NCBI GenBank assembly: GCA_004123355.1
Contig: SCHM01000003.1
Location: forward strand, 7,583,058 to 7,647,057
From: Amphirosellinia nigrospora
Taxonomy: Eukaryota; Ascomycota; Sordariomycetes; Xylariales; Xylariaceae
Direction: 5' to 3'
Length of the DNA stretch: 64,000 nt
Part shown: piece by piece, positions 1 to 64,000 of the stretch
Position numbering within the stretch: the first letter of the stretch is position 1
How the letters are laid out: each line of letters starts with the position of its first letter
Position numbers and translations under genes: made by a program
Notes under the pieces: generated by a model
Told to the model about the DNA's origin: nothing
Databases searched by the model: none
What the model saw: only the letters and a program-made list of their open reading frames with translations

Positions 1-429
1 GAGATTACCGAAAACGGTAAAATCCGGGTGGTCTAAATTCTCCGATTGGATGTCTCCAGCTTCGTCCGCTGTCTCAAAAAATCGGTAACCCATAATCCTG
101 GACCGGTAGGTATACTTCTCCTCCGAGGCATGATGAGAGATCCTTTAGAGCGTTATGCAATAGACGTGTAGAGATGAGCAGAGATGGATGTCACTTCCAA
201 GGCTAGTGTTGCTAGGGATAGGATATTTAGGAGTCTATTCCAATAGCTATATCTCAAGCTGAACAGAGATAGCCATACCCTCTCCGGCTCATACAATTTG
301 AATGCACTTAGTGAAAGTAAGATTTAGCTTCATAGGGTATATAAGTAAGAAATAAAAGAGAATCCTGAGCGTTGGCATGTATCAGAACAACGGTGCACGA
401 TTGATGTCTATGTCTGTCTGCTAAAATCA
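1..429. other. Left-edge spacer, upstream of the P450 gene
   Basis: No coding signal is seen here. The part nearest the P450 start is AT-rich and holds a TATA-like element. It is probably the P450 promoter and leader, cut by the window edge. Confidence 0.5.
338..345 (+). promoter_or_regulatory. TATA-like box of the P450 gene
   Basis: TATATAAG lies about 85 bases before the ATG at 430, a plausible distance for a fungal TATA element with a short leader. It is a sequence match only. Confidence 0.35.
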
Positions 430-2338
430 ATGACAATGGTCCTCTTCTCTTCAACAACATTTTGGACGTTAGCTGTCTTGTTAATTCTTTATGTTGCTGT
501 AGGGCTAGTTCGTAACACCTTCAAGGCCATCACCACCGGGCTACCGTATACATTCACGTTGATACACGAACTCCAGGCCTGGGCCTATGTCACTGATCCC
601 ATCCTGCGACGTCTTTGCCGGAAACGGCTTCTAAGAGGGCAAGGTTGGCCACGATGGGTTCGTTTCATGGTCAAGGATTGGCATTACGAAGATAAGTACC
701 GGGCTCACGATGAGTTCGGCTCCATCTTTCTAGTTGTTTCGCCAGCGGGAATCGTGTGTTATGTAGCGGATGCCAACGCGGCCTTCCATATCCTCACCCG
801 CCGAAAGGCTTTCATTAAGCCACCTGATAAAATGAGTTAGTCTTTCTTTTCCATGCTGAGTATTGTTAAGTCGCTGAGGATTATATACAGAGATGCTTGA
901 GCCTTTTGGTCCCAATATAGGGTCGTCGGAAGGAGACCTCTGGAAATCACACTCTCGCATCGCGACGCCATCATTTAACGAGTCTACTCTACTCTCAGTC
1001 TGGGTTGAAAGTCAGCGACAAGCCCATCGACTGAAGATGACATGGTCGAGGAACAATAATACGGCATTCGAGAAGGAGATATACACAGCGACAATGAAAA
1101 CCATGGGGGCCGTAAGTTTTGGGTTCCATGGGCACTCTGCCAATCCTGAGACGATCGGATCTGAAAAGACATCCGGGCACACGCTGTCCCTTCTTGGGGC
1201 TCTCAATGGAGTTGTAATGCATCTGCCGCATATCCTGCTTGTCCCAAAACTAGTTTTACGCTATTCTCCATGGAAAGCTGCATATACGGCGTACACCGAG
1301 ATGGACAAGTACATGGACGATCTATTAAGTCGGGCAAATCGAGACATCGATTGTGGTATAGAACTACCTCGCGGAAAAGGTAGTCTTCTTGAAGCTCTCC
1401 TCAGACACAGCCGGCAAAGTGCCAAGCTCAGTAGCGAGAAATTATCGGTCAAGTTCAGTTTGACCGACCAAGAGATCAAGGGCAATCTGTTTATCTTCCT
1501 TCTGGCCGGTGCGCGTCTCATCATCCCGTGTTCATGTCCTGTTCTCTTCACTTATACGCGTCTAAGGTTACGATACGACGGCAAACACCATCATTTACGC
1601 ATGCATTATCCTGTCATTATATCCGGACATCCAGGATAGGGTATTGAGCGAGGTAGAACAGTATCACAAGCATTCGCATAAAACTGACGCTTCGGGTGAA
1701 TCGATCCCTCAGCAGCTCGCAAAGTTCCCTTATCTTCTAGCCTTGATGGTAGGATTCCCTTGGACGGTGCCCTCGATGAGTGACAGAGTCTGGCTTACCT
1801 GATTTCTCTAGTACGAAATTCTCAGGGTCTTTCCCGTCATAAGACCAATCGCCCGACAGACGACGTCGGCCCAGCAGCTACTGATGGGAGCACATCAGGT
1901 GGTTCTCCCGGGAGGAACGGATGTGATTGTCAACAACACAGCGCTACATTTCGCCGAGTCGAACTGGCGCTCTGCCGAGATGATCGACCCAGAAGATGGC
2001 TCGTACAAAATCCCAACGCGTTCGATCCCTCGATTCCGGCGACAGAGGAACAGGAGGTCGAGATGCGTCGAAACACGGCGAAGATGCCGGAGCCCCTCAA
2101 GGGTACGTTCATGACGTTTGGAGAAGGGCCGAGGGCATGTTTGGGACGGAATTTCGCCAAAGTCGAATTCGTCGCCTTCTTTTCTGAGCTGTTGCACGAT
2201 AGTAGACTTGTGCTGGGTGGGACGGCGACAGCTGAAGAGGTAGAGCGGGAATTGAGATTTGTGAGTGGTGGTTCGCCCGTCACCTTGATTCCACCATGCA
2301 CTGTGGATATCAGACTCGTGCCCAAGGAGGAATCATGA
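430..2338 (+). CDS. Cytochrome P450 monooxygenase (one apparent frame break)
   Basis: Haem-thiolate monooxygenase of the microsomal type. Four exons fit: 430-835, 891-1508, 1567-1748 and 1812-2338, with introns of 55, 58 and 63 bp and good GT/AG ends; the total is about 576 codons, slightly long for the family. Visible landmarks in order are an N-terminal membrane anchor (about residues 11-28, LAVLLILYVAVGLV), the FGPN..S.EG..WK.H segment typical of fungal P450s, the I-helix oxygen-binding motif AGYDTTANT created by the splice at 1509-1566, the K-helix ExxR in YEILR at the start of exon 4, and the haem ligand loop FGEGPRACLG (cysteine codon 2138-2140). The coding frame shifts once, near 1994, inside the PERW segment: DPE is in one frame and RWL in the next, as if one A were missing. 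All catalytic landmarks are otherwise present, so I read the gene as probably functional with a sequence error; a recent pseudogene is the alternative. The substrate cannot be told from sequence. Confidence 0.88.
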
Positions 2339-2830: not shown

Positions 2831-5800
2831 ATGTCTACGAGAGTGCAGCGTTCAGACGCGTTGCGTCCTCTCTCCCGCACCGACACTCCCTTTGACCAGA
2901 ATGGCCATGATGCATCCGAACCCGGGAGCTCGCAGGCCATGCAAGAGCTCCTTCGACCCTTGATCGTTATCAAGGTGAGCCAATCGGCATCAATTGCCCG
3001 TCGTGGTGCCGCGTGACGCCTGCTAATGAATTAACCCGCCAGCCACATCCGCCCAAGCTCACCATCAAACCTCGAAGCCTCCAACCGCTGATGCTCCTCA
3101 CGCGCCAACACCTTCGCCTGTCTTTCTTAGACCTCTCTTCGCCCTATGGAAGTTTCGAGTCGTCGGCCGCTTTCGAGGCCAACATCCGCATCCTGGATCT
3201 CGAAAGCCGCATGGGCAACCGCCCTGTCGTCTTGATAGCCCGCCTGGAAAGCAACCGATCTATTTACGCCATCGAACGACAAGGCAATTCCTTATACACC
3301 TTATGCCACTTGGGTTCATGGGTTGATCTCGAACAGCTTTGCAGCCTGGCTATTGTCTCGTGCCCGGCTTTGATACGCAAGCAACCCGTAATACCTCTCC
3401 CGCCAACCACAAAGGTGCCCTTGACAACACCCCAAATATCCCACACGAACAAGAAGAGACAACTCGCTATCGAAGCCATCCAATCCCTCGTTAGGAAGCC
3501 GGCGAGATCCCAGTCTATTTCAGCTCTGTCGCAAACTGGAGAGGTCTCGCGGCCACCCACCCCGTTGCAGGGAGGCAATGTGCGCGGCGAAGGGGGCGGA
3601 GCAGTCTCCAAGATACATCCGCCCCCGACATTTCCGCTGCCGGGTTAGATGTCGAGTCCCAAGTGGGACCAGTACAAGATGAGAATGAGGCCCTCGCTAT
3701 GCCCAGTGCCGAAGGCATATTCGAAAATATTCGAAATCACTATTTTGAAGCGTTATACCACTCGATGGTAAGTATACATTGAGCCATGCTACACCTTTTT
3801 GCTGCTAACGTAATGAAGGGGTCTCTAGCATACTTCGCTAAAGCCCGTTATCTCGGGCACGTGCTGCTTTTCATCTTGATTGTGATTCTACACTGGAGAT
3901 GAGCGATCTAGTAGAGTTTTTGAAAAGCTTGGTTTTAACTACCGTTCAAATTGACAAGAAATATCGCGACACAATCCCGAAAATACAGTTGGCCATGAAG
4001 ACTGCTATCGAAGAGTCTGATGCCGAACAAGGGCAAGGAAAAAGTAAACCGAGAAAACGGAAGACCAAGAAGATGAAAATTGGCAAAGACGGGTTGTATC
4101 CTACTGAAATTGATCATATCCGAAAATGGTGGGCTGTCCACAAACCCCACGTGAACAACCACCAAGAATCGACCACAAAGTCAACCGAACAACAGGATAT
4201 CAAACTACAAGTATCCTTGCTACGATCCCGAGAAACACAGTTGCAGATGATCATTATTTTGGAGATTCTCTCCCTAGAGCCGCTGGTATCCCGCGAAGAT
4301 GCGAACGATTCACAGCTTCCGGGCGTACCTCTCGTTGAAGGGTCTCTTAGCCCACCCAAAACAATGCCCATCAAGAAACGAACGAAGCATAACCTCCCTT
4401 TTCTTCTCGACGTGCACGCAGATCGCTTATGTATCTGGCAATCTACGGCTTTCGATGAATTCAACGCGATAAATGAGTCCCAAGCCCGCCCTAAATTAGA
4501 GTCACAAATATCCTCCAAGTCTACATCAGACTTTTTAAAAGATTTCTGCGTTGATATCATCGTACCATTGTAAGTAAAGCTGAAAACTCTATATAATTAC
4601 GGACCATTAACACAGTCCCCAAAGCTTCTCTGCGAGGCTCCCCGAGCACTGCGACTCAATTAACAGGAAGCTTGGTGGCCCTGTGATGCTGGCTTCTCCA
4701 AAATCAAATCGGAAGAAAACAGAAACGAGTCCCCAAGCCAAGGCGAAACCCGGCGCAGCGGCAAAACGGCCGGCACGTTCAAATTCTAGCCGGACTCTTG
4801 AGAAGTTTCTCTCTAAAGAGACGGAGGAACATCGTCGAAGCATATCCCGTGGTCCGGGTGGCGTTATCGCATTAATGCGATCTGCAAGTACGCCTACTGT
4901 ACCTCTATTGAAGCGAGAAGCAAGCGAGCCGCTGTCCGTGGGGAGTATACCGACAGCAGACGGCAACACATCTCGTGAGAAACATTCGTCTGCCACCGGC
5001 CTGGTGTCTGCTAAACACAGAGCCGAGTCAAGAAAGAAGAGAGACGCGTTCGTAAAGGCGGAGCTACAAACTGCTATTTCCACACTCAGACGGCCTAACA
5101 GAGAGGTCGTCGGGAAAGCCATGGCTGAAGCAGATGAGAGGCGAGCCGTCACAAGCTTGTCCCAGCTTCGTAGTAAGTCGAGTGACCTCGTAGAACAATG
5201 CGCCAGCTGATCAGTACTTTAGAATCCAGGAAGCCGACACAGCACAACCGATTTCAAAATGTTGTCAAAGCCACACCAGTTGGATCCCGATTTCACGATG
5301 TTCTGGCTAAGGGGAATGACTCTCAACCTGCTTTGCTGCAACGGTTTCACACAATAGCAGAGGAACAAGCTCCGCCAACCTCGTCGATCGTTCCATCATC
5401 AGCACCCAAGAAGCGGAACCGAGAGGCAGCTTTCGGAAGTGAACTAGCAGCGCCACGAACACTCGCCCCGTCCAGAACCGACCAAATCATGGCAACGCCC
5501 GCAAAATCGACAAATTTGAATCACAACTTCCTCTCAGCCCCTCAACCCGATGAAGGCGTCGTGTTAGCATCATCGCCCATCATGTCCCGAAAGATAGCCC
5601 AGCCGAGCTTTGTAACTAAAACTAGGCCTGCTACATTAGGGCATCGAGATAGTGGTATCGAAATACCCCCATCGCCAGGGGGGCTCAGTGTCCTAGCCGA
5701 GACGCCTATCAAGCTCCGACAAAACAACTCGATGCACAACTACATAACTGTAACCCAATTAAGAAGAGATTATTAGCAAACAGCGATGATATACCTATCG

Positions 5801-5906
5801 CTGGAGCCGAAACAAACGATGTGGGACACAACAACGAAAACACCCCCAAGAGAAAATTGACCATTTTTGAGCGATTAGATGGGATGATTACGACGAATTA
5901 GCATGA
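2831..5906 (+). CDS. SLD3: DNA replication regulator Sld3 (several apparent frame breaks)
   Basis: Sld3 (treslin-related) brings Cdc45 to the Mcm2-7 helicase at origins after CDK phosphorylation, in the nucleus. I recognise the fungal Sld3 conserved blocks: LTIKPRSLQPLMLL and FEANIRILDLESRMGNRPV near the N-terminus, then SLAYFAK / PLSRARAAFHLD, FLKSLVLTTVQIDKKYRDTI, RETQLQMIIILEILSLEP, FSARLPEHCDSINRKLGG, and the acidic C-terminal end WDDYDELA. Exons by splice signals are 2831-2974, 3043-3767, 3819-4569, 4616-5173 and 5223-5906, with introns of 45-68 bp. The frame changes without an intron at about 3540-3650, at 3843 (AAAGGCCCG expected, one G short), at about 5740 and at about 5885 (LGWDD split, one G short). 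The middle is basic and low complexity, as expected for this rapidly evolving protein. It is convergent with DIS3. The family call rests on recalled motifs, not on a search. Confidence 0.78.
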
Positions 5907-6694
5907 TGGATCTCATAATGAAGGACGAAGCGGAAAGAGAAGAATACTGGGATCATCACGAAAATAGCATAGGTATTGACATGCATAAACTATATGAATC
6001 ACGAAGGGCTACGAAGCGAGAATTTGGGGCTGCGCGTACCTGACATCACGTCGCTAGCAAGCAAGCATTGCATGGTATTGCGGAGTTTGGGTCCTCGAGT
6101 ATTGGGCGTTTTATAAACACGGATACATAAAGTACATTGCATACATCCCCTCGTATATAGGTAGCAGAATTTCTCGCATCATCGTCGTCATAATAGACGT
6201 GGGGGTTGGTAGTCAGAGCTTTGATGAAGCGTTGTATGTGTGTGTATGCTTAGAAATGTATGTACTAGCTTGCCGAGTATGGCTTGATATTGCCCCCTAT
6301 ATAATGTGCTAATTGATCACTTTGTAAAATGAAAATGAGAAAGCATTCGTTCACTTGTTATTTATCATGGTTGTGGTATATATGCTTTTTCTGTTGGCTC
6401 TTCCTGTCTACTTCAATGAGGAGGATGTATAAGTCCACATCGTTCCCGATGTTTTTGCCTAGTTAAGAGATTGCTATGTGATTCTTTCATTTCATCTACC
6501 CTGATCTGATGTACGGTGTTACTTTAAAAACCTCGCATCTTCCAGCACAGAGACCGTTCTATCTCTCATATCGAATCTATCATATGACCGCATGACGACC
6601 GTAAACAACCATCAACCAACTCTTCATCCATTATAAGTAACCCACCACGATGCACTACCTCACCGACTCGACGCCCATCCAGTTATCTAGGAAC
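5907..6694. other. Convergent intergenic region SLD3 / DIS3
   Basis: Spacer of 788 bases between two genes that read towards each other, so it should hold both 3' UTRs and polyadenylation signals. It is AT-rich and no open frame of interest was found. Confidence 0.5.
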
Positions 6695-9600
6695 CTACTC
6701 AGCATGCACAAGCTCCATCTTGGCGCCGCGCTTCCCCGTGGCCTCGTCCTTGACATCACGGATCCGCACACGGACCTTCTGGAACAATTCCACGGATCCC
6801 TCGTAGCTGCCACTAAACTTCAACACGTAATTCTCGGCGTCAAAGACGCTCTCGGGTTCCGGTTCCGCGAGGTCGCGGAGGCGGATGAGGCCTTCGATGC
6901 CGAACCGCGGGACGAGCACGACGAAACCGTTGCTGAAGATGCGCATGACGAAGGCGTCTTCCTCGGCGACGCGGCCTTTGAGGGACTGCCCGACGTAGTA
7001 CGCGACGCTAGCGCGGCCGGCGAGCTGCGCGTTGCGGTGGCGGACGTTGATGTTCTTGCAGACGGCCTCGAGGCGGCCGCGCGCACGCACGGCGGGGTGC
7101 ATGGCCTCGTAGCCGATGGCGGCGGCGAGCTGGCGGTGCGCGACCAGGTCGGCGTACCGGCGGATGGGGCTCGTGAAGTGCGTGTAGATCTCCGAGGCGA
7201 GGCCGTAGTGGCGGAACTCGGGGAACGACTGCGTGCCGGCGCAGAAGTACTCGGCGCTCATCATGCAGCGCGTGGCCATGATGCGGACGAGCGTGTTGAA
7301 GAAGGGCTCGCCTTCGGCGACGCACGTGTCGAGGGAGTCGGCGAGGGCTTTTGACGAGTCGAAGCGCAGCTCCATCCCCCGCTTCACTTTGAGCTGGTTG
7401 GCGAGCTCGTCGAAGTTGGTCTTGGGTGGCGCCCCGTGCCGCCGCAGGATCGCCGTCTGAGGAAAGGCTTCATAGATCTTGCGCGCTACGCTGATGTTGG
7501 CGAGGAGCATGAACTCTTCGACGAGCGAGTTGGTGTCGAGCAGCTCCTTCGTCTTCACATCGATCGGGTCCGACGTCTCGGACTCCATCTGCACCTTCAC
7601 CTCAGGCGACGAGAGACTTAGCGCACCCGCATCCATGCGCTTCTGCTTCAGCTTTTTGGAGAGCATGAGCAGCGTCCGCATCCCATTTGTGAGGTCATCC
7701 TGCTGCGACGCATCGTCAATGCGCAGCTGAGCTTGTTCGTAGCTGAACGCTTCACGGGACTTGATGACGGATTTGGTGAACCGCACATCCACGATGTCAG
7801 CAGAGGGACTTAGCTCCCACAGGACAGAGAAGGCGTAACGCTCTACGTAAGGTTTTAGAGAGCACAGGTCGGTACCTAGGAGCATCGGAAGCATATCAAT
7901 GCGCTTATCGACTAGGTAAACGGTTGTGCCTCGTATACTGGCTTCCGTGTCCATGGCATTGGCTGGCTTGACGAAATGCGACACATCGGCAATGTGCACA
8001 CCGACCTCGTAATTTCCGTTCGGTAACGGTTTCGCATGCAGAGCATCATCGATGTCTTGGCAGCCGATAGGGTCAATACTGCAAATCAGAAGCCCCCTTA
8101 GATCTTCCCGATCTTTCCAACCCGGATCGTCTGTGCTCGTGGGGACTTTCCAATCGTGACCCTCCTTAGGTAAACAATCCAAAACAGTCTTAGGGAATGG
8201 TCGGTACTGTACATCATACTCGAGTAACAGGGCTTCGGTTTCTGCGGCCTTGGTCTCCAATTCGCCCAGCGATCGGACGAAATGACCAACAGGGTTTCTG
8301 GATTCGCGGTCCAGGAATCGATGGTGACCAAAATTCGCTTTCCGAGAAGTTCGCCAGCCTGCCGTGTCCGTATCCGGATCTTCGGGATTTTTGTCCATCG
8401 GGATCAGGAACACACTTTCCTGCTTCTTGCCTTGTGCTGTTTGGCTGACCGAAGACGGATCCACATGGCCAACATACTGACGCCAATTCCGTTTAATGAC
8501 CGATTGACCTTGGCAGTCGGCTGCGGCCTACCTCCGTGGTTTGGCCTTGCTCTTCTTCACTTCTTCCTGCAACCGCCTCTCTTTCTGCGTAACGACATCC
8601 CTGCATTCTCATCATTGTCGGCGTTCTCGTTCTTTGTAATTGCCTCTTCTTCAATGATCTTAGTAGAGGTCTTTCCACTGGTCTTGCTGGTAACACTTCG
8701 ACCACAACCACATCTCCATCTACAGAGCGGTTGATTTATCTCTGCCAAGTACGAGGAGAGGTTTCGGAAAAGCAGGCACTTTGATTGAGCCTTCGAGATA
8801 GTTGTATGGAGATACGTTGAATATACCCTGATGTAACATGCCGCTCTTCACCCCGTCATCATCTTAGACAAGCTGAAGTATTCTGGGTAGAAAAATTCAG
8901 TCTTCTTCTCCTTGGAGGCGACACGTTCCTGTGACTCGGCAATCATGTCTAGTAATCTTTCGGCATCCTTTAAGCCTGAGACGTAGTCGCGCAACCTAAT
9001 ACCAGGGACATCTTCCTGTTTTGCTTTTTCCAGATTACCTCTATCGTCAGATAACATGACTGTGACAGGTATGTTTTTAGACTTTGTTTGGCCTAAGTGG
9101 TCGTTGTACCACTTGACTGCACGCCGGACCGCGCGGTCGTTACGGTCATTGATGCTCTCATCCTGTTCGCGATTTACGTATGTCTCTAATCGAAACTCGT
9201 TGAAAAGACATAAAATCGCTTTTCTTGGCTCTTAGTTAAGCCAATAAGCCGGTTGTACAATGGCAAGGATCTGTTGCGCAGTTCCTCGAGAACAGTTTGT
9301 AGAATGATAACGTCAAAGAAAGCAGACCCTTGCTCAAACAGGTCCATGGCATTCAACAAGGCATTCGTATCTGGGACGAGATAATGCCCTTGCGGATATA
9401 CCTTGGTGCCTGCTGTCTGTGAGCACAAAAGGGCTCACTATGATGGGAGTCAGTCATGGTAAGCTTCTTAGCAATGGGGATAAATGAGATCAGAGGAGCT
9501 CACCGATGCCAGCAGCACTCCTGGGGCCGAAGCAAGGCATGCTGAGCAGAGCCGCGAAGAACACGGTATATCTTGCCGTAAGTAAACCTCACGGACGATT

Positions 9601-9698
9601 TTCTGGACCTTGCCACTCTTGGTTGATCTCACATATACCTTGCTAGAGAGGTTCGACGCAAATGGGTCCGTGTTGACGGATCTCTTGAGACTCGTCAT
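6695..9698 (-). CDS. DIS3: Exosome 3'-5' exonuclease/endonuclease Dis3 (Rrp44), many apparent frame breaks
   Basis: Catalytic subunit of the RNA exosome, an RNase II family enzyme that degrades and trims RNA in nucleus and cytoplasm. From the N-terminus: the CR3 cysteines ([11 protein letters not shown]), a PIN endonuclease domain ([30 protein letters not shown] supply the acidic residues), cold-shock-like segments, the RNB domain with the metal-binding aspartates in [14 protein letters not shown] and the [13 protein letters not shown] block, then an S1-type C-terminus ending KMELVHAE. Usual family length, about 970 residues. One intron fits at 9438-9503. The RNB/S1 half from about 8300 down is clean for 1.6 kb, but the N-terminal half is broken into frames at least eight times, each explained by a missing base in a short run: TTTT near 9213, GGGG near 8860, AAA near 8740, and a two-base plus one-base pair at about 8398 and 8313 that cancel. 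An essential gene with all catalytic residues kept makes sequence error more likely than decay. Confidence 0.93.
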
Positions 9699-10213
9699 CG
9701 CACTCGTTCGGTCTTTAATGAATAAGATATCGTCTCTTTGTATTCGGATTTAGTCCGTGTTTGAGAGATAGATAGAGAGTTAGATGATGCGCTGGGCTGA
9801 TGATGTTCTGACGTGCTGGTTGTAGTGAGTTGTGATACCTAGTAACCTATTTTCATTCCATGAGAGATCAAAAAATGATAGCGGTAAATTGGGCAAATCA
9901 GCAGCAGCTACAGCGCGCCTGTCTGGCGTCTGACGGTCGCCTGTTTGGGCTTGCCGCTTATCGTTATCGACCCCGCCATTAGCTCATCAAGCATGCAGCA
10001 GCAGCCGTCAACGGCCCGCAAGGGTCTATGCACAGGTGCGGCCAACCTTGGAAGTCAATTAAACATTTAAACTGGGTTTAGGGACAAAACGATTGGAAGC
10101 CACTTCACCGGATCACGACGCTGTCGTTGCTGGCTTCGAAAAAAATCTCCGCGAACCCGGATTGGCGAAACGCATGAATGACAGGCTAATTACATACACA
10201 TACATACATAGCA

Positions 10214-10270
10214 CATACATTATACATTATACATTATACATTATACATTATACATTATACATTATACATT
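10214..10270 (+). repeat. Heptanucleotide tandem array (TATACAT)n
   Basis: Seven perfect copies of TATACAT run from 10221 to 10269, preceded by a one-base variant copy and by CATA-type repeats from about 10195. This is a minisatellite in non-coding DNA, probably polymorphic between strains. Confidence 0.9.
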
Positions 10271-13200
10271 AGATACACCTTATACATTTTCCTGGGCTCG
10301 ACGCACATCCGCCATGTACAGTATCATTGATCACTCATCAGCCACCTACCTGCAGCTAGCAATCTGATAAAACTCGCCGAATCAAGGCAGCCCCCATCTC
10401 ATGCCACCCTTTTTTTTCTTCTTTTGAACTTGTTTACTGTCAGCTAAACTAGGAACGCGACTTTGAGGGCAGCACAATGATGCGCGTAGATCGCCACCGT
10501 CGATGCAAACAATCACGGCCATGGTCATGGTCAGCGTCAGCGTCATAGTCGTGGTCATGAACGGCGTCGAGTCACGCCATGATCAGAGACACACATACGT
10601 CCATCCATGGATATACGCCTACACGGCACTATAAGGAATCCTGTTATGTTGTGCCGTGCTGTGCTATGTGATGTTGCGGCGGCCAGCAGCACAGCAGCAG
10701 CAGCAGCAGTGGTAGTAGAGTTATTTGGAAGACAAGACGCGGTAGGCGGGTTATGCTGTGGTGTAAGTCAATTGCAACGATCTCCATCGCGGACTGCAGC
10801 CGGCACGCGGCGCGTTGCAACACCACGAGACCACCCCTCCATCTGCGCCATATGCACCTTATCTGGAGTCCTCCACCATGTGCGCCGCGTCGTCGCAGTC
10901 TTCGCGCGAGACCCGGCTCCAGCTTGCCTCGATGGGGAGTCTTCCGCAGCATCTAGCTCCACGCCCAGGACGCCAGAAGACCCCGTGGAGCCGTATCTAC
11001 GAGTATCCCGCTCCTGATACCTAACCTACTTAGTGTTGATAATACGGTGCGACAGCCGATAATGCAAATGTACGTCCCTCGCCACCGATCCGCCGGTTAC
11101 AGCACCATGCCACTCCATCACAGATGAGCGCTGCTCTTCTCCTTCTCCCCCGTGAATACGAGTACAAGACGTCCGTCATCTGGGGGCTTCTAGTCATATG
11201 ATCGGCGCCATTCAACCGGACATTTCTACCATATTGGTTCCTTCTTGAGGGCATGCAGCACGTTGCGGATCGCCTGTGGCGGTGGCATACTGCAGCCACC
11301 CAATCCACCTAAACAAGCGGAGCGAGATTTGCCCACGCTCTACGCGCGTTTATCTGATGAGTGCGTGTGCGTGTGCCTGGGTGCGCGCTCTGTGGGGGGA
11401 GAGCGGGCCATGAGCCACGAGCTGCCGTAGCTACCACATACCGTCCTATGTTGGACAGACCAGAGAATTTGTGAGAAATGACAAGAGAAACTCGCGCAAC
11501 ATCGCATATCGATCTTTGTGTAATGTGATACTGAGACACCTTGACTACATGTCCTACACCAGCCACGCGCACGACAAGTTGTGCCACCGAGATCGGCCGC
11601 GGTCCGCGTGGAGCAGAGGATCCCGGGGAGGGCTCGGCTGTTCGAGATCGACAATATCTAAATTCGACCTCAACCGTACACATAGGGAGACGCACAAGGG
11701 ACCCGGTCAACGACGCTTTAGTCCCCATATTTGTGTAATGCCTTGGTGCGCGTGACGAGGTAGATTGGCGAGATGGCATGATTTAACCCCGTCGACTTGA
11801 TGTATATCCATTAAAGTACGGGGCGATGGAGAATTCGAAATCTGGCATTTTGGGGCCTCAGAGCGCCACAAGATTCTAAACAAAGATATCGTATCTAGCC
11901 TGTGGTCTCCGTAGCAGCGACCTAGTGGAGCATGATCCATACCATGCCCACGGCAAGTCTCGATATACAGGTCTCCAGGATGATAATTGTGTAGCGCGGC
12001 GCTAGGGCTTGTACTGGCAGGGAATTTTTGGTAAGAATTTTGCTATGTCTACTTATCGACCAGGGGCTGTTGAGTGGCAAAAAGGCTTCGAGACTGATCA
12101 ACAGCTATGTTTCTACTTGAATTCATATAACAGCCTTGTGAGTAGCAGTACTCTTGCTCTTCTGGTTTTAGCACGGCGCTACACAATTATCATCCTGGGG
12201 ACCTGTAGAGAAGATACAATACGGCACAGTATGGGTCTGCCCAGCAGACTTGCACAAAACATTCTACTAAACTTGGTTACTGTGGCGTTCCCTTAAATAA
12301 TGTGGAATATCCCCCCACCAAAACAAATCCCTTATATCATGAATATCATGACCTTGATGAGGCAGGGCAGGGCACCGGGTACTTATCCGCAGACGAGAAG
12401 AGCACATATTTACTTGGTCAAGAGTCATGATTATGTAAGAGGAAATGTACAAACATAGCCTATCTACCATGTACGCTATATTAGAACACGAAGACTTGCC
12501 AAGCTTCCAAAACGTCTGCCTACGATCAGGGTTCTGAAAGGCTATTCGAGGATGCTGTGGCACGATGCGCTCTACATCCTCTTCAGATGACCGTATTAGT
12601 GAGTGCATCGACAGGGCAAGGCGGTGACGGCCGCACCACTTTCTCGAGTCTAGCAAGGGCAGAGGCGCCAACCAAGGGCCGGAGATGGAATGAAGCTCCC
12701 GAGATGCCACCATCCCAACCCAGATGTTGACATGTCGGTGAAGATGGCCGGTCTATTCGAAGGTTTGGCAGTCTTCGCTAATGCGCGGACACTAGCCACT
12801 AGCCGCCATTACGTCACCTCTGCAATGCGGCCGCTGGTGTTAAGATCTGCACGGTATAGCGCTCTCTAGGGCTGGCGGTAGGCGCACAAACAAGGACGAG
12901 ACCCATGTGCATCGGAATGGAGCGAGGGGTAGGGTATCGCATAGCAGGGAGCCAGCCTAAAGGGTAGTGAATCCATGGGTTGGCAGGGCTAGATGGGCTG
13001 GTCTGGTCTGGTTTGACTCATTGCTAATTAGCAGACGTGGGTTTGTGCAAGTCTGCAAGAGCGGGTAGCAGGGGTTCACCCGTGCTGTCGTGATATGCAC
13101 AAGCAACGGGCGAACAGGTAATACCTTAACCCGTGTAGTGTTCTTGGTGGGTGGGTGGGTAGGGTAGCTGGGGAGCCAGGTCGAGTTGGTGGGATGAATC

Positions 13201-21380: not shown

Positions 21381-22028
21381 ATACCAACCAACTCGACCAA
21401 CTGTATAATCCACATCGAGGGTCCATGCAAGCAAGTAAAGCGCAGTACGTACATTCATTGGCTGCTCTGGTGCTGGTACTGCGCTGCACAGAGTATCGGG
21501 ACCCTCTCCTCTCGCGCGAATACCCACCCCGGAAACCATCATCTGCCACATTGTGGTTTGTTCGCTCGTTTGCCTATTAGTCGAGAGTGGCTCCTAGTCT
21601 CGTCCCTAGTCGCTACCTAGTGTCTAGTGTCTACCTAAGTGTCTGTCCTATCCTGTCTGGTCTGGTCAGGTCTGGTCAGGGTGTGTGCCCCGCGCGACCT
21701 TCACATGAAAACCAGGACGAGGACGGGACCGGGACGCAGCGAACGAACACCACGCCAGGCACATCATAGTGTACATGATATATCCGCGCGGGCCAGCGTA
21801 CAGACCCAACAAGACCCAACACCAACAGGCTGACAGATTCCCCGTTGGCAGGCTAGACGAGCAGGCAGATATAAACAAGGACTTGATTTGGCACTGCGCC
21901 AATCTGCCAATTAGATACGAGAGCAATCCTGCCTTTCAGTCAAGTGGGAGGGGAGAAGAAGCGATACCTCGCCTAGCTGTAAGTAGTACCCCGTGCCCTT
22001 CACTCTCACTGCCTTATCTACCCTGTCC

Positions 22029-22074
22029 ACATACATACATACATACATACATACATACGTACATACGTACATTC
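22029..22074 (+). repeat. Tetranucleotide repeat (CATA)n with CGTA variants
   Basis: About eleven CATA-type units with two CGTA interruptions near the 3' end. Translated, it gives a meaningless His-Thr-Tyr-Ile run. Confidence 0.9.
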
Positions 22075-22981: not shown

Positions 22982-23052
22982 CATACATATCCACCCATCC
23001 ACCCATCCACCCATCCACTCATCCACCCATCCATCCATCCACTACATCCACC
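22982..23052 (+). repeat. CCAT/CCAC repeat in the RSC7 leader region
   Basis: Imperfect CCAY tetranucleotide tract within pyrimidine-rich sequence 400-470 bases before the RSC7 ATG, so probably in its promoter or 5' leader. Confidence 0.8.
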
Positions 23053-36705: not shown

Positions 36706-36722
36706 TGTGTGTGTGTGTGTGT
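36706..36722 (+). repeat. (TG)n microsatellite
   Basis: About eight TG units followed by TAAGTAATG. Confidence 0.85.
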
Positions 36723-39975: not shown

Positions 39976-40005
39976 GGATAGGTAGGTAGGTAGGTAAGTA
40001 GGTAG
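39976..40005 (+). repeat. (GGTA)n tetranucleotide repeat
   Basis: About seven GGTA/AGTA units. The related CTACCTACC sequence recurs in other spacers of this window. Confidence 0.85.
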
Positions 40006-49000: not shown

Positions 49001-49140
49001 TTCGGTTTGGCCTACGTTCGACATCGAAGACACGCAACCAATATAATTACACATTAGACCCACCCGAGAAGTTGCCGCCATCCTAATCCTGGACATAACA
49101 TATATACGTAATAGCAAACCGTTCGGCAATCTTCGACACC

Positions 49141-51131
49141 ATGAACATGCAATTCTGTGCGCCACCGGGCTTTGCCTCCCCATACAGCTTCTCTCAAGGA
49201 CAAGGAGCGAGCATGGCCTACGCAGAACCCCAATACCAGGTCCATGCAGCCTATCCTGGCCTTCAGTACATGTATGGTTATCAAACACACCGCCAGCCTA
49301 TGATGGTCGATCGAGGAGGTCTATGTGATGGCAAGACGGAATCTAAGCCGCGGTTATCTAAAGAAGAGGTTGAAAAGCTTGAAAAAGTATTCCAAGAAAA
49401 CCCTAAACCCTCGAGCTCAGTGAAAGCTCAATTGGCGGACGGCCTCGGCTTGGAACGACCTAGGATTAATGTAGGACACCCCCTGCTAGTGTTAGCCTAT
49501 ACATGCTAACTCAGGATGTCAGAACTGGTTTCAAAACCGCCGTGCCAAGGCGAAACAAGAAAGGAAACAGGAAGAGTATGAGGCTCGGAGAGCGGCTGAG
49601 AAGTCAGCTTCTGAGCCTTCGTCCCCAGACGAAGATTCATATTCGGGGCTCTGGATTCTTTGAGCGAAGGGTCTCACAAACGTACGCAGCCTTCCTCAGC
49701 TGCGTTCCCTGACGTTTCTTCACCTTCCCAGATCACCGATGCGTCACATGAAGATGAAGAGGATGATGAGGATGAGGATGAAGACGAGGATGAAAACGAT
49801 GAGACTGTTGAACACGGAATGAACGATGCGAATTCTGTTTGCATGCAATCTGCAGTGTCAACCCAAGCTGACGTCGCCGATACCTACCAATCCCCGCTCT
49901 CAATTGACTTTTCACAGCCAAACCCTACAGGCCTCACTCATCCTCACGGTGCTGGAGGCTACACACAGACGAGGTCAATGAGTGACTTTGGACTCTTCAC
50001 GTCAATAGGCCATGGCCACAATGCGGCTTTAGACGGCAGGACTTTGGAGCTACACCACGGCATTCCTTCACGCGTGGAGCGAAGCATGAGTATCGAGAGC
50101 CACAGCTCCCAACACTATGCTGGTATGCATAGCGCAGCGATTCCGAGCTCTTCAACAACCGCAATGTTTTTCTCGCCGGTGTCAAATGGTGACGCTTGTG
50201 ACATGTCCGAGAACCCATTCGATTGTAATGCATCTCCCGATTGCCACAATGATCTCGCATCCCAGGGTATGCCGACACCTACAGACTCTTTCAGATCCCC
50301 CCTCCTCCGGCCAATCTTGCATCCAGGCGGAACATTCCCCGCCCAGCCGCACTTCAAGCTGCTTCTTTGCGAAGCCGCTCCTACAATATACCAAAAACAG
50401 CCTTAGACGTATCGAAGCGAATGGATGTCTCGAGCCCAGTCAAATCAATACGTAGGATCTCTTCAGCCTCCGGGATGGGTCCCGGTAGAATTCAGAAGTC
50501 CACTGCCGGCCCGCGCTCGCCATTCTTCGGACGTGCTGAGGCTCTTCTGCAATATCACAATCGTTCACCAGTTGGCTCGGGAACACCTACTTTTTCGGGA
50601 GCTCCTCCGACCCCGATGACACCAGCTGTCTTTGACCAGCGCCATATTCAGGAACCGACTGTTATTTCGGCTTCGCCAGATAACGGGTCGTTTTTGGGAA
50701 TGGGCATTACTTCCAACTATGTACAAGAGATGAAGGAAGAAAACGATCTCAAAACCCCACCCACAACACCTGGCATGATGACCGAATTCAGCACACACGG
50801 ATTCGTCGGCAATGCATTCAGTGGTGGCTTCAACATCACTACAGACCAGCCGCTTCTCACCCCTTACTTCAATTCCGAATTTCCAGACCTGTCCATGCAG
50901 CCTATCCCTAGTTACGTGGAGACAAGCGGTGGCAGCCCATCGACACCGGTATATCATACCATGATGAACTCGAACCTAGAGCATCCCACATATCCTAGAA
51001 ACGTTGTCGCCAACACTCAGTATGATTGGGATGCCAACGAATCCGTCGTGTCATCAAGGTCCTCGCCTGGCTACCCAAGGTCGAAGCAGATTCAATTCAC
51101 ACCCAACATAACCCCTCAGGATTACCACTAA
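49141..51131 (+). CDS. Homeobox transcription factor (two apparent frame breaks)
   Basis: Nuclear DNA-binding regulator. Exons are 49141-49470 and 49523-51131, with a 52 bp intron (GTAGGA..GCTAAC..CAG) that falls inside helix 3 of the homeodomain, between RPRIN and NWFQNRRAKAKQ. The homeodomain spans roughly residues 60-125: LSKEEVEKLEKVFQENPKP, QLADGLGL, then the recognition helix with the invariant W, F, N and R of WFQNRRAK. A basic, Glu-rich helix follows, then an acidic Asp/Glu run (49752-49800), a long Ser/Pro-rich region with SPVKSIRRISSASG and PRSPFFGRAEALL blocks, and the C-terminus QIQFTPNITPQDYH. Total about 645 residues. The frame moves twice: at about 49643 (GGGG, one G short) and near 50345. 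It resembles fungal homeobox regulators of conidiation such as Htf1/Hox2, but I cannot confirm orthology. CACC before the ATG supports the start. Confidence 0.85.
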
Positions 51132-53985: not shown

Positions 53986-56950
53986 TCATGATTGTGGCCC
54001 CCAATCCATCGCTATATTCGCGTCGCCCATGGCGCCGTTCCCATATCCGATGTTCGTCGTGTTCAAGTAGCTATCTATGTCGGCCATGCCCTCGTTTTCC
54101 AACACCCCCATGAGCTCGATCTGCTGTGCCTGGCTTAGACTTCCTTGTCGATCTGGGGGTAATCCGTGCGTGGGGTTGTAGTTCCCGGCTCCAGGCCGTC
54201 GAATCCGTTCATGCCGGAGGTGTTGTTGCCCCAGAAACCTGCGCCCATGCTGCCAAATGCATAAGGGGATATGAATGGTGGCGGGGGGTTGAACCAGTCG
54301 TGGACTGTGCTGGATTGTGGTAAAGGTCGCTGGCCTTGGGGAAGTTGCCCTGGCGGTAAAGATGGGATGGTGAAGGCGGGGAGAGGTGGTCGTTGTTGCG
54401 TTTGGGGAAGACCATGCATTGGCTCAGGAGAGGGCCGTGATGCCGTCGTTGGAAGTAGTGGGGTCGATAGCAACGGTGTGCTCATAGATGGTGTACCGAC
54501 GTGCATGGAGGCTATGGACTCGGGGGGCGTTTGGGCAAGCGGCGGTGATGACACAAAGGGTGGAGATATAGTAGATTCCGAAGGAGGTGGACTGGGATCG
54601 ACCCCGGGAAGGCCATCGGCTTGAGTAAAATCGGGGGAAAGTAGCTGAAACGACGACCTGTTGGTCGTTGGAGGCCGGATTTAGGAAGATAGAGTTAGAT
54701 CGGAAGGTAGGATGTGGCGGAAAGTTGCTGTCAAGACTGTAATTCTCTATAGATTCGGGCGCTGAACCGAAGACATACCCAAATTGGGGTGGGTTGAACG
54801 CGGGCGCACCAGGCTTAGACGATGGCCCCGGCCCTGATAATTCCATGGCATTGGGGGAGCTTGTCTCCGCCTGTGATGGTGGTGTATTGAGGGAACCTGG
54901 GCTGGATAAGTTGGGAGTACCATTCGAGTCATAACTCTGAAGGCAAGCTTTTGTCAAGATAGAGTAGAGCTCAGATGCCGAAGCGGTGCCTGGCCACCGC
55001 TCAACGCATTGGTCGATTATATCCAATGCAACGTTTACGAGCTCTTGCACTTCCTCTCTGGAATGCGCTGCGCGGACATCTGGGTACCTTGCTATGCACC
55101 ACAGAAGGTGTTAAGCGACATATATAGAGTCAGTAGGAACACCCATGTTATATCTACGGCAGCCGACATCATCTGCTTGCTCGATATATCTATTACAAAT
55201 GCAGCCGAGTCGAAGCACTTAGTAGCAGACTGCACCGACGGCCGCGGCACTTGTGGCGAAGGGCGGTGTAGAGACACCACCATTGTGTGATATCTACCCG
55301 TGAACCTGCAGAAGGAATTAGTCTACTTCGTGATGTTGAAGAACGGACGAAACTCACCATGGCTTACACCACGCGGGCTTCTCCGGGTGACCTCAGCCAT
55401 TGGTCCATCCTTGCCTCCATGGCAGCGAACCAAGGATGGTGAGCGTTTCTTGGTTCAGGGCGCTTCATCTCATATAATGTGCGACGGATCTCAGCTTGAA
55501 CCAGTCGCATCTTGCAGAAGTGAAGCGACGAGTTTCTTTTCATCCGGTGGCCCGGGTACAATACCATTCTCCGAAATGTTCGCGTCGGGCACAGTCTCAA
55601 ACCATTTGATGTCAATGATATCATCAGTCTTCGCAAAGCCGTTGGGGCGGCCCATTGAATGCGATAATCCCAATTCGAGGGTGCTCACGATCCAGCTGAG
55701 CCGTCGACGCATATCCAAAGACATTGGGTCGCTGGCACCTAAAGCGATCGTTTTCTCATCCGCAAGGCCGAGCTGCTGGCTGATCCTTGTTGCGAGACCA
55801 ACCACATAGTATACAGCTGTTCGAGTCGGCGTTAGTAGAGAATACTGACCTATCAATACGAGGCACTGGAGTGTTTTGATATCCTTGGGTCGAACGACTG
55901 CTTCAAAATACTGCATTGCTGCGAGGTAATAGCTATCGGCAAGCCCAGCGTAATTAGAGTCGAGCTTTTGCATGCTTATGGCCATAACCAGGCGAACCAC
56001 GAAGTTTTGATACGGGTCCTGGCTACCAGCATAGGCATCTTCAAGGGCCTTGGCGAGTATCTTTTCATGAAGCGCTGGGCTAAACACTTGAGCTGCGTTC
56101 CAAAGTTAGATTTTCCCTTGGCTGGGGTATTGGGCATTACATGACATACCCCGTTGATGGAAACTTCGACGAGCTTATCAGCTATAGGCTTGCTGGGAAG
56201 CCCTGACGCTGCTACTGCACTGACCATGGATAGCTCTTCTTCCTAGGGTTCCCGGCCGGCATACTAAACGACTGCGATCTATTCCCCGTGGTTGCGATGC
56301 CTATAGTGTTCCGCCTCCTTTCACGTCCGGTATGAGCTCTGAAATCCGACCGTCTCAGTGTACCGCTTCGCCTCTTCCATCACGATGCGCGTCATGGCAA
56401 TCCCGCTAGATGGGCCGAGATATCGAGGGGTCTCATCGGTTTCATTCAGCCTTACTAGACCGCCGGGGCGAATAAAATCTTCATGGTCTTTGGCATAGGG
56501 GTCCTCTTCTTCGTCGATATACTGGCCCAGTTCCGCATCTAACGCGCGAACTCTTTCTTGGAGCTTGACGACATAAAGCCGACTGATCTTTTTTCCTTTC
56601 GTTGTGTCGAAATATTCGCATATCGAACCGGATCGCTCGCAGGGAAGGCATCGTGGGAGGGGGATCGCATCGAGTTTTCCTCTAGCCAGGCTACGTTAAC
56701 TATCGAAACAGAAATTCCAAAGAGAGCGATACTCGACATCGCATCATTGAACAAGCAAGTATTGGAAAGTGCGCATTACTCACCTGGCGAAACGGCAACA
56801 AGCCGTTAAAGTATGCGCGATGCGATGTGAATTCCCATGTTCTCCTTGTTCATCGTCGTTCGCTATCTTCCTCGGTGGGAATTCTTGGTACGGCCGTGGA
56901 ATTTGGCTGCCAAAGCCTTCCACTTGGCGAAAGACAATGGAGGCATCCAT
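53986..56950 (-). CDS. Zn2Cys6 transcription factor with fungal-specific (MHR) domain, many apparent frame breaks
   Basis: Nuclear binuclear-zinc-cluster regulator, roughly 880 residues. The start is the ATG at 56950 (MDASIVFRQVEGF). The zinc cluster reads HTLTACCRC-RQRKTRCD then LPRCLPCERSGSICEYFDTT, canonical C-x2-C-x6-C-x6-C-x2-C-x6-C, split by an intron at 56682-56783 exactly between RQ and RKTRC. GKKISRLYVVKLQERVRALDAEL (linker and coiled coil), NETDETPRYLGPSSGIAMTR, and the MHR core (VFSPALHEKILAKALEDAY, IKTLQCLVLIGQYSLLTPT, MRRRLSWIVSTLEL, GLSHSMGRP) follow. Further introns fit at 56093-56149 and 55306-55357. The C-terminal part is Pro/Ser-rich, ending GDANIAMDWGPQS at the TGA 53986-53988. 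At least six frame changes occur, two of them inside the zinc cluster (CCRC-RQ, one G short; CCCCC, one C short), others near 56160, 55500, 55410, 55115, 54645 and 54135. The blocks look like a family conserved across filamentous ascomycetes, but I cannot name its target pathway. Confidence 0.85.
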
Positions 56951-59195: not shown

Positions 59196-61374
59196 ATGCC
59201 ACGGTCGAGTTTCTCGGATAATCCGCTGTTGCGGGTGTCCCGTCCAGTATCGGCTTGTTCCCGATGTAAGTTCCACTCCTCTCACATATGCGACGCATCG
59301 CGGCCCGTGGAGATCCTCAACTAATGAGCTGCGCATAGGTCGGTCCGCCAAGGTCAAGGTCTGTCTGTAATGCCGTCCTAGGGTTCTCATCGTGTTTGGA
59401 CTCTCTAACATCAACAGTGTGATGGCAAATTACCAGCGTGCACGGCTTGCGAGAAGGCCGGTCGAGAAAATGAGTGCTCGGCAGCTAACGACCAGTTCGC
59501 CAGGGGTAAAGAACGAAGGCAAGACAGCTCTGAGCCATGCGAAGCAGGCCTCCCATTATAACATATGTGGACTAACCCACTAGCAGCTACGTGGCAGCAC
59601 TCGAGCTTCGGATAGAGAAGATGGAGAGGCGCTTGGCTTTTGCGCGATCCAGAAAGGCGTCGCTTGCCGGGCATGCGTCGGGGCCGTTGCCTCCCATCCC
59701 TCAAACGGACCGAAGGGACTCTCTTGCGAATATCCAGGCTGCCATGTATCGCAAGGCCGCAAGGAGTCGCGAGAATTCAGATGTGAACTCGCTCATGTCT
59801 GACTTTGGTTTTCTGTGTGTTGGGAGTCTCTCTTACATCAGTCTATATACTAATCATTGCAAAGTTCCGTTAATGCGACAACAAGACTTCGAGCCATCTA
59901 CAAGCAACATGACCTTCGCTCGGCTTGTATTGGCTGCTGCCACGAATGATCCCCTACCTAGAGATAACAACTGGAATATGCCATCGAGGCAGACCGCCAT
60001 TACTTTGATCCAATATTATATGACTAACATATACTGTCTCTACCTGCCTTCTCCGAGACTGCCATCTACAATGTTCTCGACCAGGTATATTCAATGCAAG
60101 ATCGCGTTATAAAAGACAGCGATTATTGGCTCTTATACATGGTCTTAGCCATTAGCTCTAGTGCCCAGAGCCGGGTCAAGAACGATCAATATTATATCGA
60201 TGGCCTTTACTTGGCTTCACGGGCTCTCAGACACGCCGACCAAGCCCTCATGCCCGGCTACACGACTCAAATACAATCGCTCATCCTTTTAACACAATAC
60301 TCGACCCTAGACCCAGGTCATTTCGACAGTTGGCATTTGATCGGGTTTACTTGTCGTGCAGTCATAGACATGGGTTTTCACCAAGATCCTCCAGAGCAAA
60401 TGTCCGACAAGTCATTGCTGGACATGCGGCGGAAGACCTTTTACTGCGTATATTCGCTAGATCGGTATGCTAGATGACATGGTTGAATATAGCAGGGCGA
60501 TTACGCTGACATATTTTCAGTTCCATAAGTATGGTCCTCACCCGGGCATTCTCTTTCACTGACGCGGCAGCAAACGTGGCATTTCCGAGATCCTCATCCT
60601 TTAGCCGGAGGGCCTCGATAAGCGCCAATATCTCTCGGGCTGCGAGCCGGCCTTACTGTCTTTCAGCTCCGCCGGGCGCAGTCGCACTGGTACCAGTCAC
60701 TATCTCAATCCGACTCTACGCCTCTGCCCGATGCGACGTTTATCTGGCAGATGTGTTATCAGATGCAGGACTGGGCCGAGAGACTCCCCAACTCGCTCCC
60801 TATAGCGATAAGAGAGCTCTTCGATCTCGAGCTGCGCTACAGCTTCGTGTATTGCATGTCGCCCTCGCCAAATCGCCGCCTCTGACGGATTACGACCGAC
60901 TGTTCATCTTCGAGCACGCGCTCGCTTATCTAGACCGCATCTACGAAATCGCACACACATGGGCATAACACGGGGTTCTACTCGTACCACGACGCACTGC
61001 GCGTCTTCTTCATGGCGAGCCAATTCGTAGCGGTCGTGCGTGACGCCGAGGAGCTGCTTCTCTCCGGCATAATGCCCCCGCCCCCGCCCTACTCGGTCGA
61101 CAAGGCGATGCGCCACCGCTTCCACCTCGGATGGGGGCCCGACTTTCGATAACCTCGAGAGAAGTATCGGGTGTCTGGAGCGCACCGCAAGTACGTTGGC
61201 GAAATACGGCGAGAGGTGGACGATTCCGTGTCGTTGAGGAGAGGCTTCGATGTGATATCCCAAGATGTCATTGAGCGATTACGCATGAGACGGCAAATCA
61301 AACAGCAACCGCCCCCGCATCCGAATATGCAGGCCCAGATGGGGAGAGATATGCGATGGGTGACGTCAGTGTAG
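59196..61374 (+). CDS. Zn2Cys6 transcription factor with fungal-specific (MHR) domain; micro-exon in the zinc cluster
   Basis: Nuclear regulator, about 640 residues. The exons fit well: 59196-59265, 59339-59358 (20 nt), 59418-59518, 59587-59813, 59865-60462 and 60530-61374. Joined, the first three give ACSRCRSAKVKCDGKLPAC, then TACEKAGRENEC, a canonical zinc cluster close to the N-terminus (residues about 19-50). A GC-AG intron (59519-59586) follows, completing GKERSYVAALELRIEKMERRL, the dimerisation coiled coil. The MHR domain holds DYWLLYMVLAISSSAQSR, IQSLILLTQYS, MRRKTFYCVYSLDRSISM and AFSFTD. The C-terminal block FIFEHALAYLDRIYEIAHT and a tail ending RDMRWVTSV complete it. Frame breaks without introns occur at about 59890, 60055, 60590-60700 (one or more), 60885 and 61215. 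It is divergent from the other regulator and 1.5 kb before the sugar transporter, on the same strand, so control of that transporter is a reasonable guess only. Confidence 0.85.
59339..59358 (+). other. 20-nt micro-exon of the plus-strand Zn2Cys6 gene
   Basis: Bounded by AG at 59338 and GT at 59359. It completes the second zinc Cys and adds RSAKVK. Skipping it changes the frame and destroys the zinc cluster. The introns on both sides (73 and 59 bp) have plausible branch sites (CTAATG, CTAAC). Confidence 0.7.
59519..59586 (+). other. GC-AG intron of the plus-strand Zn2Cys6 gene
   Basis: Donor AAG|GCAAGA and acceptor TAGCAG|CTAC. Using the GC donor restores GKERSYVAALE, the expected join between zinc cluster and coiled coil, with no frame problem. 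Using the GT at 59506 instead would lose GKER and shift the frame. GC-AG introns are a small minority in fungi. Confidence 0.65.
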
Positions 61375-62861
61375 AAGCTATGATGGAGAGGGAATGTTGG
61401 TGGCCCGAGACCTGACTTTATAAGACGGAGCGGCATATATATATATATATACATGTATAGACATAGGTAGCTAGGAACTTGCTATTCTGGAATTGTCCAA
61501 GGAATGGAGCGCGGTGTCTGGTATGGTAATCCGATGTATTGTCAAGGATGTATTTTAACGACTGGGACACGAGGTTTCGTTTGAATACATACCTATTTCC
61601 TTCGACTCGAATTAAGTGCAAAAACTTTACGGGTATATCGACCAAATTATCCGTGCCATCAAGATCATTTTCCGTAAGCGTCCTAGATAACACATAATTA
61701 CAGAACTATAGAGGCAGACTTCTGCACAATAGCATGATGCTAGATCCTAGGATTTGAGAATGGTGAAGCATACAGCTCATCAGATTTCGCAGTAGGCGAT
61801 GGCTGGCCACGATAAACCAACCCATGACCTGGACCACGGCGTTCTGAACAGTGGAACCTGTGGATAGACGGGCCGTCCCTTGAATTCTGGAGCCAGGGCA
61901 GATAGTTATAAGCCTCCAGAAATTCGAATAGCCAAGACAGTAAACCAGCGGTGACAATGAATCCCAGCGTGTGGATAGGGGATACCGGAGCCGGATTACT
62001 GCTACCATATTACAAGCCAAGCGTATCACCCCATTTAATTCCACCGTCTCTCTTACGGGGATCGTACAACGGTAGCCTAGAATAGACATAAGTGCGATGG
62101 CAAGATGGGCTCAACGCCCATGTGCCATAGCCCACGGTGAAACTCTGATTGGTGGAAACTAGCTTTGACAGATTCTCCGCAAACCGTCTCCCCAGCCTTC
62201 TGAACTCCCTGCTTCACCCCCCCGCTAAACATGGTCTGGGGGAGATTCCACATCTGTGGGGAAGGAACTTACCGGTAATATTGAAGACGAACTTGATAAA
62301 AGGAGACCGTTGAAACTAAGAAGGTTTGGGAATCACAGAAGGTCGGGAGTATGTGGATGGAACGAAACAGGTAGTTTATAGACCCCGGGCAACCTTCAGT
62401 TACGAGGTCTTGGAGGCTCTCGCTATGCGGTTACAACGAACAGGCTGACTGGGACCCTGCCTGCATGCACTGGGGTCCGTCTGTCAAGGTGCTACGACGC
62501 TCGCTAAGACTATACCACCTCGAGCTGCCTACCCGAGGATGGTCAGATATGGGGCTACCGGGTTGGGTGATGCGCCACCAATAACCACGGCGTATGGTGT
62601 AGGGAAGGCAAATTCGGGACGAAGATGTCGAGTTGACGTTTGCATCCCAGCAACGCGGTACCACACCCAGGGAGGCCGTTGTGGGAATAGGGTGTTGGCT
62701 GACTACCTATTCATATACTCGCACACCCTCCTCCTTGCTCTCCTCTACCTCTTCTTTTCCTCTTCTTTCTCCTTCGCCTAGCTTGGTTGATAACTTGCTT
62801 GTCAAGTTTCCCCCAAAAACATCACTAGAGCAACTTGAGGACTGAATCGTTAAGCTTCAAG
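61375..62861. other. Spacer between regulator and sugar transporter
   Basis: 1.5 kb with no supportable gene; it holds the regulator's 3' end and the transporter promoter. A (TA)n run lies near 61435-61451. A CT-rich tract (about 62725-62780) lies about 80-140 bases before the transporter ATG, typical of fungal promoters. Confidence 0.45.
61435..61451 (+). repeat. (TA)n microsatellite
   Basis: About eight TA units about 60 bases after the regulator's stop codon. Confidence 0.85.
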
Positions 62862-64000
62862 ATGCCGAGCTCGAAGAAGCTCTATAACTGGTGAGCTGTC
62901 CTTAGCTTACATACCCTTACCCAAAGCCAGTCGTTGCTAATACATGGGGCTTATAGGTACATCGCCTTGGTGGCGGCGATGTGCATGGTGTTATATGGAT
63001 ATGATGCTTCAGTCTTCAACGCTGCCCAAGGCTCCGAAAACTGGCTCGAGTGGTTTGACCTCAACGCTGTGAGTCTTTAAAGTAGTAGCTCTTAAAAAGA
63101 AAAATTTGTCTAACCGTGATGAATCCTATAGAAAACGATGCGTACCTAATAGGCCTCGTGAACACCGCGTACACTATCGCGCCATCGTCTCTGGCTTTTT
63201 CTTCGGTGGGCCAGTTGTACGTGCTTCCGCGACCAATGCTCTGCCAGCTGTGTCTAACTTTGATGTAGCCGACTATTTGGGCGACGTTGGGGAATGGGTC
63301 TCGGCTGTTTCCTCACCATTATTGCCACATTCATCCAAGCCTTCGCTCCACGACATAATCTAGGCGCCTTCATCGGAGCCGTGTGCTGATCGGTCTGGGC
63401 CAAGTCTAGCACTAAGTGCGTCTATCATCACTTACTAAGTCTTTGTAGCTGTACTAACCATGACATAGCCGCCGGACCGATCTACATCGGCGAAGTGTCC
63501 CTCCCCGAAGTTCGCGGCAGCGTCATGACATTCTGGCAAACGTTCTACAGCGTCGGCAGCTTCATCGCCTACTGGATCGCCTACGCGGCCAACATCCACC
63601 GGAAGACGCTGGGCAACTGGGACTGGCGGATCGTCGTCATCTTCCAAATCCTGGTGCCCCTGATCATCATTATTCTCTTGCCGTTCCAACCCGAGTCGCC
63701 GCGTTGGTGGGTCAAGCGCCACAACAATCTCGAGGAGGCCAGAAAGGCGTTACGCCGGATCCGCGAGACGGAACAGGATGTTGAGGACGAGATTCTGGCG
63801 ATCCGTGAGGCTATCGAGTACGAGAACGAGGCATCAGTGGATCCTACAAGGCTGTTTAAAGACCCGTCCATCCGCAAGCGCCTCGGGCTCGCCTGCGTCA
63901 TTAATGTCGGCCAGCAGCTCTCTGGTCAGGGTACTCTCAACTCGTACTCGAGCGCCATCTACAAGAAGATCTGGACCTCGAGCGAGACTATCAACCTGAT
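62862..64000 (+). CDS. MFS sugar transporter, N-terminal part (cut by window edge)
   Basis: Plasma-membrane sugar:H+ symporter of the major facilitator superfamily. Exons fit at 62862-62890, 62957-63068, 63132-63216, 63269-63415 and 63469 to beyond 64000, with short introns of 52-66 bp. The protein begins MPSSKKLYNW, then transmembrane segment 1 (YIALVAAMCMVLYGYDASVF), LIGLVNTAYTI, DYLG followed by RRWGMGLG (the GxxxDxxGRR loop between helices 2 and 3), GPIYIGEVSLPEVRGS (helix 5 entry), WRIVVIFQILVPLIIIILLP, the PESPRWWVKR sugar-porter signature, and NVGQQLSGQGTLNSYSS in helix 7. About 330 of an expected 500-550 residues are in the window. Single-base losses are implied near 63132 (AAAA), 63180 (GCGCC), 63285 (GGCGACG), 63377 and 63403; exon 5 is clean. 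The overall look is close to lactose/hexose permeases of filamentous fungi; the substrate is not determinable. Confidence 0.9.

Follow-up and report, generated by a model that had tools for sequence, protein, structure and literature searches.

Frame changes in conserved genes of a 64-kb Amphirosellinia nigrospora contig segment are probably uncorrected small indels of the assembly

In a contig of the fungus Amphirosellinia nigrospora (GCA_004123355.1, SCHM01000003.1, positions 7,583,058 to 7,647,057; this whole stretch of 64,000 nucleotides is referred to as the window) the conserved protein sequences of recognised genes run across different reading frames. This raises the question whether the genes are broken in the organism, interrupted by introns, or intact and misrepresented by the assembled sequence. 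The window has a G+C content of about 50%, and the recognised genes, among them two Fungal_trans regulators, are the following:

349 to 2338, plus strand: cytochrome P450; PF00067 in four of five pieces, profile positions 87-434.
3899 to 5912, plus strand: SLD3; PF08639 in three pieces, profile positions 27-268, 270-456 and 443-540.
6695 to 9698, minus strand: DIS3/RRP44 exoribonuclease; phmmer E 8e-293 to 6lqs_R4 with the joined pieces as query.
24543 to 26321, plus strand: RSC7; PF08624 (E 1.4e-48) and 23fj_T (E 3.5e-137).
32181 to 33935, minus strand (true gene ends may differ): NUG1 GTPase; 8pv1_CL (E 2e-189, joined pieces as query), PF08701 and PF01926.
34520 to 35587, plus strand: GPP1-like HAD phosphatase; 2qlt_A (E 1.1e-30) and HAD_2.
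49099 to 51131, plus strand: homeobox gene; PF00046 in two pieces, profile positions 6-46 and 45-57.
53986 to 56700, minus strand: first Zn2Cys6-type regulator; PF04082 (E 4.1e-15) and a cysteine motif seen by eye.
59409 to 60968, plus strand: second Zn2Cys6-type regulator; Zn_clus at 20.0 bits (cut-off 21.0) and PF04082 (E 6.9e-12).
62895 to 64000, plus strand, truncated by the window end: sugar transporter, the MFS gene of an earlier, sequence-only reading; PF00083 (E 7.2e-36).

NUG1 and RSC7 each match a fungal-type homologue best, the gene content as a whole is in keeping with an ascomycete, and intact homologues of DIS3 and NUG1 are present in the PDB set. In the first Zn2Cys6-type regulator the two upstream pieces searched gave no Zn_clus match, and the motif listed is one that we take to be the cysteine cluster. 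SLD3 and DIS3 (3899-9698) are convergent neighbours whose ends lie close together. Upstream of RSC7, the plus strand from 22001 to 24000 shows a strong pyrimidine bias (GC skew -0.369) and includes an ACAT tandem repeat at 22029. A tRNA search of the window returned no genes. To look for broken genes that single frames would hide, 24.6 of the 64 kb (9800-19700, 27000-31800 and 36000-45900) were scanned with Pfam in all six frames; no domain rose above cut-off, and the one sub-threshold match was to NrsF (17.5 bits, cut-off 26.8). Such a length of scanned, Pfam-free DNA is long for a fungal genome; these stretches may be intergenic or consist of repeats or lineage-specific genes.

Frame changes were counted with an aligner that takes a protein along the DNA by way of codons, gaps, introns of the GT/GC..AG type and frame changes, all of which carry their own cost. 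It was applied to DIS3, NUG1, RSC7 and the GPP1-like gene against their solved homologues, and robustness was assessed with six parameter sets. At default settings the raw alignments placed 17 frame changes (12 in DIS3, four in NUG1, one in RSC7 and none in the GPP1-like gene). Two of these, at 9430 and 9402 in DIS3, were dropped as artefacts of a misplaced intron because the adjoining intron 9503-9417 was recovered in three of the six parameter sets. The remaining 15 lie in 2676+1596+1001 = 5273 aligned nucleotides of DIS3, NUG1 and RSC7, a density of 2.8 per kb (2.6 per kb when the GPP1-like gene is added, 5762 nt), and even the strictest penalties still required 12. Applied to 24 simulated genes that were intact and contained introns, the same procedure produced one false frame change in 42,924 nt and recovered 68 of 72 introns. 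The frame changes are thus far beyond chance, and there are no introns to account for them.

The DIS3 alignment extends over 876 codons (identity 0.588) and contains ten frame changes after removal of the two artefacts; the raw counts over the six parameter sets were 12, 10, 7, 9, 9 and 12. Nine of the ten are found in 0.56 kb (8856-8301), and the next 1.4 kb is clean. NUG1 (522 codons, identity 0.672) shows four, of which three lie within 33161-33080. In RSC7 (326 codons, identity 0.718) the one aligned change near 25.83 kb was present in six of six parameter sets, and inspection by eye adds a second near 24.89 kb. Altogether nine further changes were placed by eye: the first Zn2Cys6-type regulator has four of them, the GPP1-like gene two, and RSC7, P450 (near 2.0 kb) and SLD3 have one each. 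Some of these calls lean on motifs presumed for the protein in question. The C-terminal change in SLD3, near 5.88 kb, is based on what we assume to be a GWDD-type SLD3 ending, and a second SLD3 change between 5.70 and 5.78 kb is possible. In the GPP1-like gene, for which a VKHWH stretch presumed for such proteins served as a guide, the two changes lie in the first half; the second half is clean, and the alignment of this gene, with 163 codons only and an identity of 0.399, required no frame change. A phase model built on the codon usage of clean stretches (1,822 codons) assigned 14 coding segments (8,167 bp) and was dropped for counting because it missed most gene pieces.

The total therefore reaches 24. 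It leaves out the homeobox gene, in which additional frame changes were seen, the second Zn2Cys6-type regulator, which is likewise split, and the sugar transporter, which has changes between 63.1 and 63.4 kb and a single open frame over its final 0.6 kb. The claim of the sequence-only reading that there are well over thirty split points is plausible, but our tally, which covers seven of the ten genes, stops at 24. That reading had also attributed the splits to residual assembly indels rather than gene decay, and this remains the best explanation in view of the density of changes in essential genes and the excess of losses. We consider it highly probable that the genes are intact and that the frame changes represent small consensus indels left uncorrected in an error-prone assembly, one that was probably built from long, nanopore-like reads.

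The 15 aligned changes comprise nine one-base losses, four two-base losses and two one-base gains, that is 13 losses out of 15 at default settings. Over all 24, 15 belong to the frame class in which one base is lost and nine to the class in which one is gained or two are lost, and in some cases of the latter the sign depends on the gap penalty. The predominance of losses claimed earlier is therefore borne out by the alignments and is less certain for these nine. The sequence context was examined for 16 sites, the 15 aligned changes and the RSC7 change near 24.89 kb. The longest run near these sites averaged 3.06, as compared with 2.45, 2.61 and 2.74 in clean stretches for half-windows of 6, 8 and 10 (P 0.0036, 0.024 and 0.079). 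A run of at least four was found within six bases of four of the 16 sites and near none of the other 12, so that the claim that the losses come mostly from homopolymers is weakly founded. Throughout the window, A and T runs of at least seven bases are in excess (11 and 11 versus about 2.2 and 2.4 expected) and run lengths up to six match simple expectation. Homopolymer truncation was rejected as a signature, since long A and T runs are over-represented and not depleted, a comparison that has this simple expectation as its only reference. A homopolymer account is partial at best. The frameshift-aware alignment with its tally of sign and context that the earlier reading had called for thus confirms the majority of losses and leaves a weak tie to homopolymers.

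Drafts produced by 454, Ion Torrent or low-pass Sanger sequencing also yield indels, and the window carries no record of the platform; an origin from one of these technologies instead of long reads is improbable, though it fares better than any of the other alternatives. On flow-based platforms errors occur almost only in homopolymers. The 12 of 16 sites that have no run of at least four within six bases are unlike the output of such platforms.

It appears very unlikely that the genome has intact copies of these genes at other sites and that the region itself consists of pseudogenes or of a degenerate duplicate. The changes are clumped by stretch, as decay would allow, and a second copy elsewhere is compatible with an analysis of the window alone. 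Yet DIS3, NUG1 and RSC7, three unrelated core genes, are all hit and nevertheless 59-72% identical to their solved homologues. Furthermore, the 1,724 aligned codons include no stop at default settings, one stop appearing in DIS3 in two of the six parameter sets; this result and the lack of a motif common to the sites agree with the earlier reading of the changes as assembly errors. If each indel is assumed to come with 5 or 10 substitutions, decay would have produced 2.7 or 5.4 nonsense codons (P of zero stops 0.067 and 0.0044), whereas with 2 substitutions per indel 1.1 are expected and the probability of none is 0.34, so that the stop test is weak. Decay by RIP is not indicated either, as indices of 0.834 and 1.121 are not RIP-like by the thresholds that we assume.

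The changes are unevenly distributed. Nine of the 16 sites fall within 600 bp of DIS3, a concentration reached by 0.075% of uniform placements (P 0.00075) with a window size that was set after inspection of the data; the longest clean gap, 1,381 bp, is not significant on its own (P 0.074). No frame changes are present in the DIS3 alignment from 8300 to 6920, a stretch of the conserved catalytic part, and RSC7 is clean for 0.94 kb between its two changes, from about 24.89 to 25.82 kb. The window-wide effect described before is accordingly a patchy one. Such clumping is unlike a uniform error process and counts against plain assembly error. It is, at a slightly lower probability still than decay in general, conceivable that the clumped losses are real and belong to a segment that is degenerating or was recently duplicated, or else to one kind of nucleus in a mixed culture, where small deletions precede substitutions.

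A number of the splits are normal introns and no breaks at all. The 13 candidates are:

836-890, 1509-1566 and 1749-1811, plus strand: P450 candidate introns; all three keep the frame, two of the three without a CTRAY-like branch site.
4570-4615 and 5173-5222, plus strand: SLD3 introns of the type GTAAGT..AG; frame kept, joining the three PF08639 pieces.
9503-9417, minus strand: DIS3 intron; frame kept.
34606-34668, 34733-34874 and 34920-35090, plus strand: GPP1-like candidate introns; two or three keep the frame.
49471-49522, plus strand: homeobox intron within the homeodomain; frame kept.
56149-56093 and 55367-55306, minus strand: candidate introns of the first Zn2Cys6-type regulator; one of the two keeps the frame.
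63069-63131, plus strand: sugar transporter candidate intron; frame not kept.

Ten of the 13 keep the frame across GT..AG, which is not so for the 15 aligned frame changes; since the candidates were chosen by inspection, and in part because they preserve the frame, this count is no independent measure. The frame is not kept by 56149-56093 or by 63069-63131, and a frame change therefore adjoins each of these introns. The third GPP1-like intron loses the frame with the tested anchor and keeps it with the neighbouring piece in the alignment path, which has a single residue ahead of the intron. The earlier statement that every gene is split at points with no intron signals is thus upheld by the 15 intron-free changes in DIS3, NUG1 and RSC7 and contradicted by frame-keeping introns in SLD3 (two), P450 (three) and the GPP1-like gene (two or three) and by one each in DIS3, the homeobox gene and the first Zn2Cys6-type regulator. 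Introns account for the splits of the SLD3 Pfam domain, across which no frame change is needed, and for nearly all of those in P450. That most splits are missed introns and the sequence is largely sound is nonetheless hardly credible: an alignment that permits introns still requires 15 changes in three genes, conserved residues are adjacent on either side of many of them, and the explanation is refuted for NUG1, whose four changes recur unaltered in six of six parameter sets.

Programmed frameshifting or other recoding in many genes, which nothing favours besides the frame changes themselves, can practically be dismissed, given that no 4-, 5- or 6-base word is enriched at the 16 sites (P 0.978, 0.88 and 0.996), the two frame classes are both represented (15 and 9 changes) and long stretches are clean.

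The preferred reading is therefore that of genes probably intact in the organism and of an assembled sequence that would retain consensus errors of one or two bases, for the most part losses, left behind by an error-prone and probably long-read, nanopore-like procedure. It is supported by 15 changes in 5.27 kb as against one in 42.9 kb of simulated sequence, by identities of 0.588-0.718 across the breaks and by the canonical, frame-keeping introns, ten of 13 candidates, that these genes contain. On the other side stand the weak tie to homopolymers, the excess of long A and T runs and the two of 15 changes called as gains. Excerpts from the literature on long-read assemblies describe a similar pattern. 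In one long-read draft most indels were false deletions (PMC12007338, as excerpted), and polishing with Racon led to fewer insertions and more deletions (PMC8011154, as excerpted). As far as these excerpts go, the window resembles long-read consensus error in its small coding indels, mostly losses, and in protein conservation that spans the gene splits, and differs from it by the weaker homopolymer tie and the strong clumping. For nanopore assemblies of filamentous ascomycetes, an excerpt of PMC9453082 reports that low coverage results in indels outside homopolymers and that, for three genes, there were none above 50x. The likeness to the low-coverage assemblies of that excerpt, which is one of sequence, lies in indels in and outside homopolymers of conserved single-copy genes. 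Read against these nanopore assemblies, the clumping and the off-homopolymer sites suggest that read depth was locally low, and this, more than pure homopolymer miscalling, may have been the source of the errors.

On this account the frame changes tell us nothing new about the fungus, and their bearing is on the sequence record. An intron-aware review is needed, lest true introns be tallied as errors, and single-frame gene calls on the record would break up DIS3, NUG1 and other essential genes.
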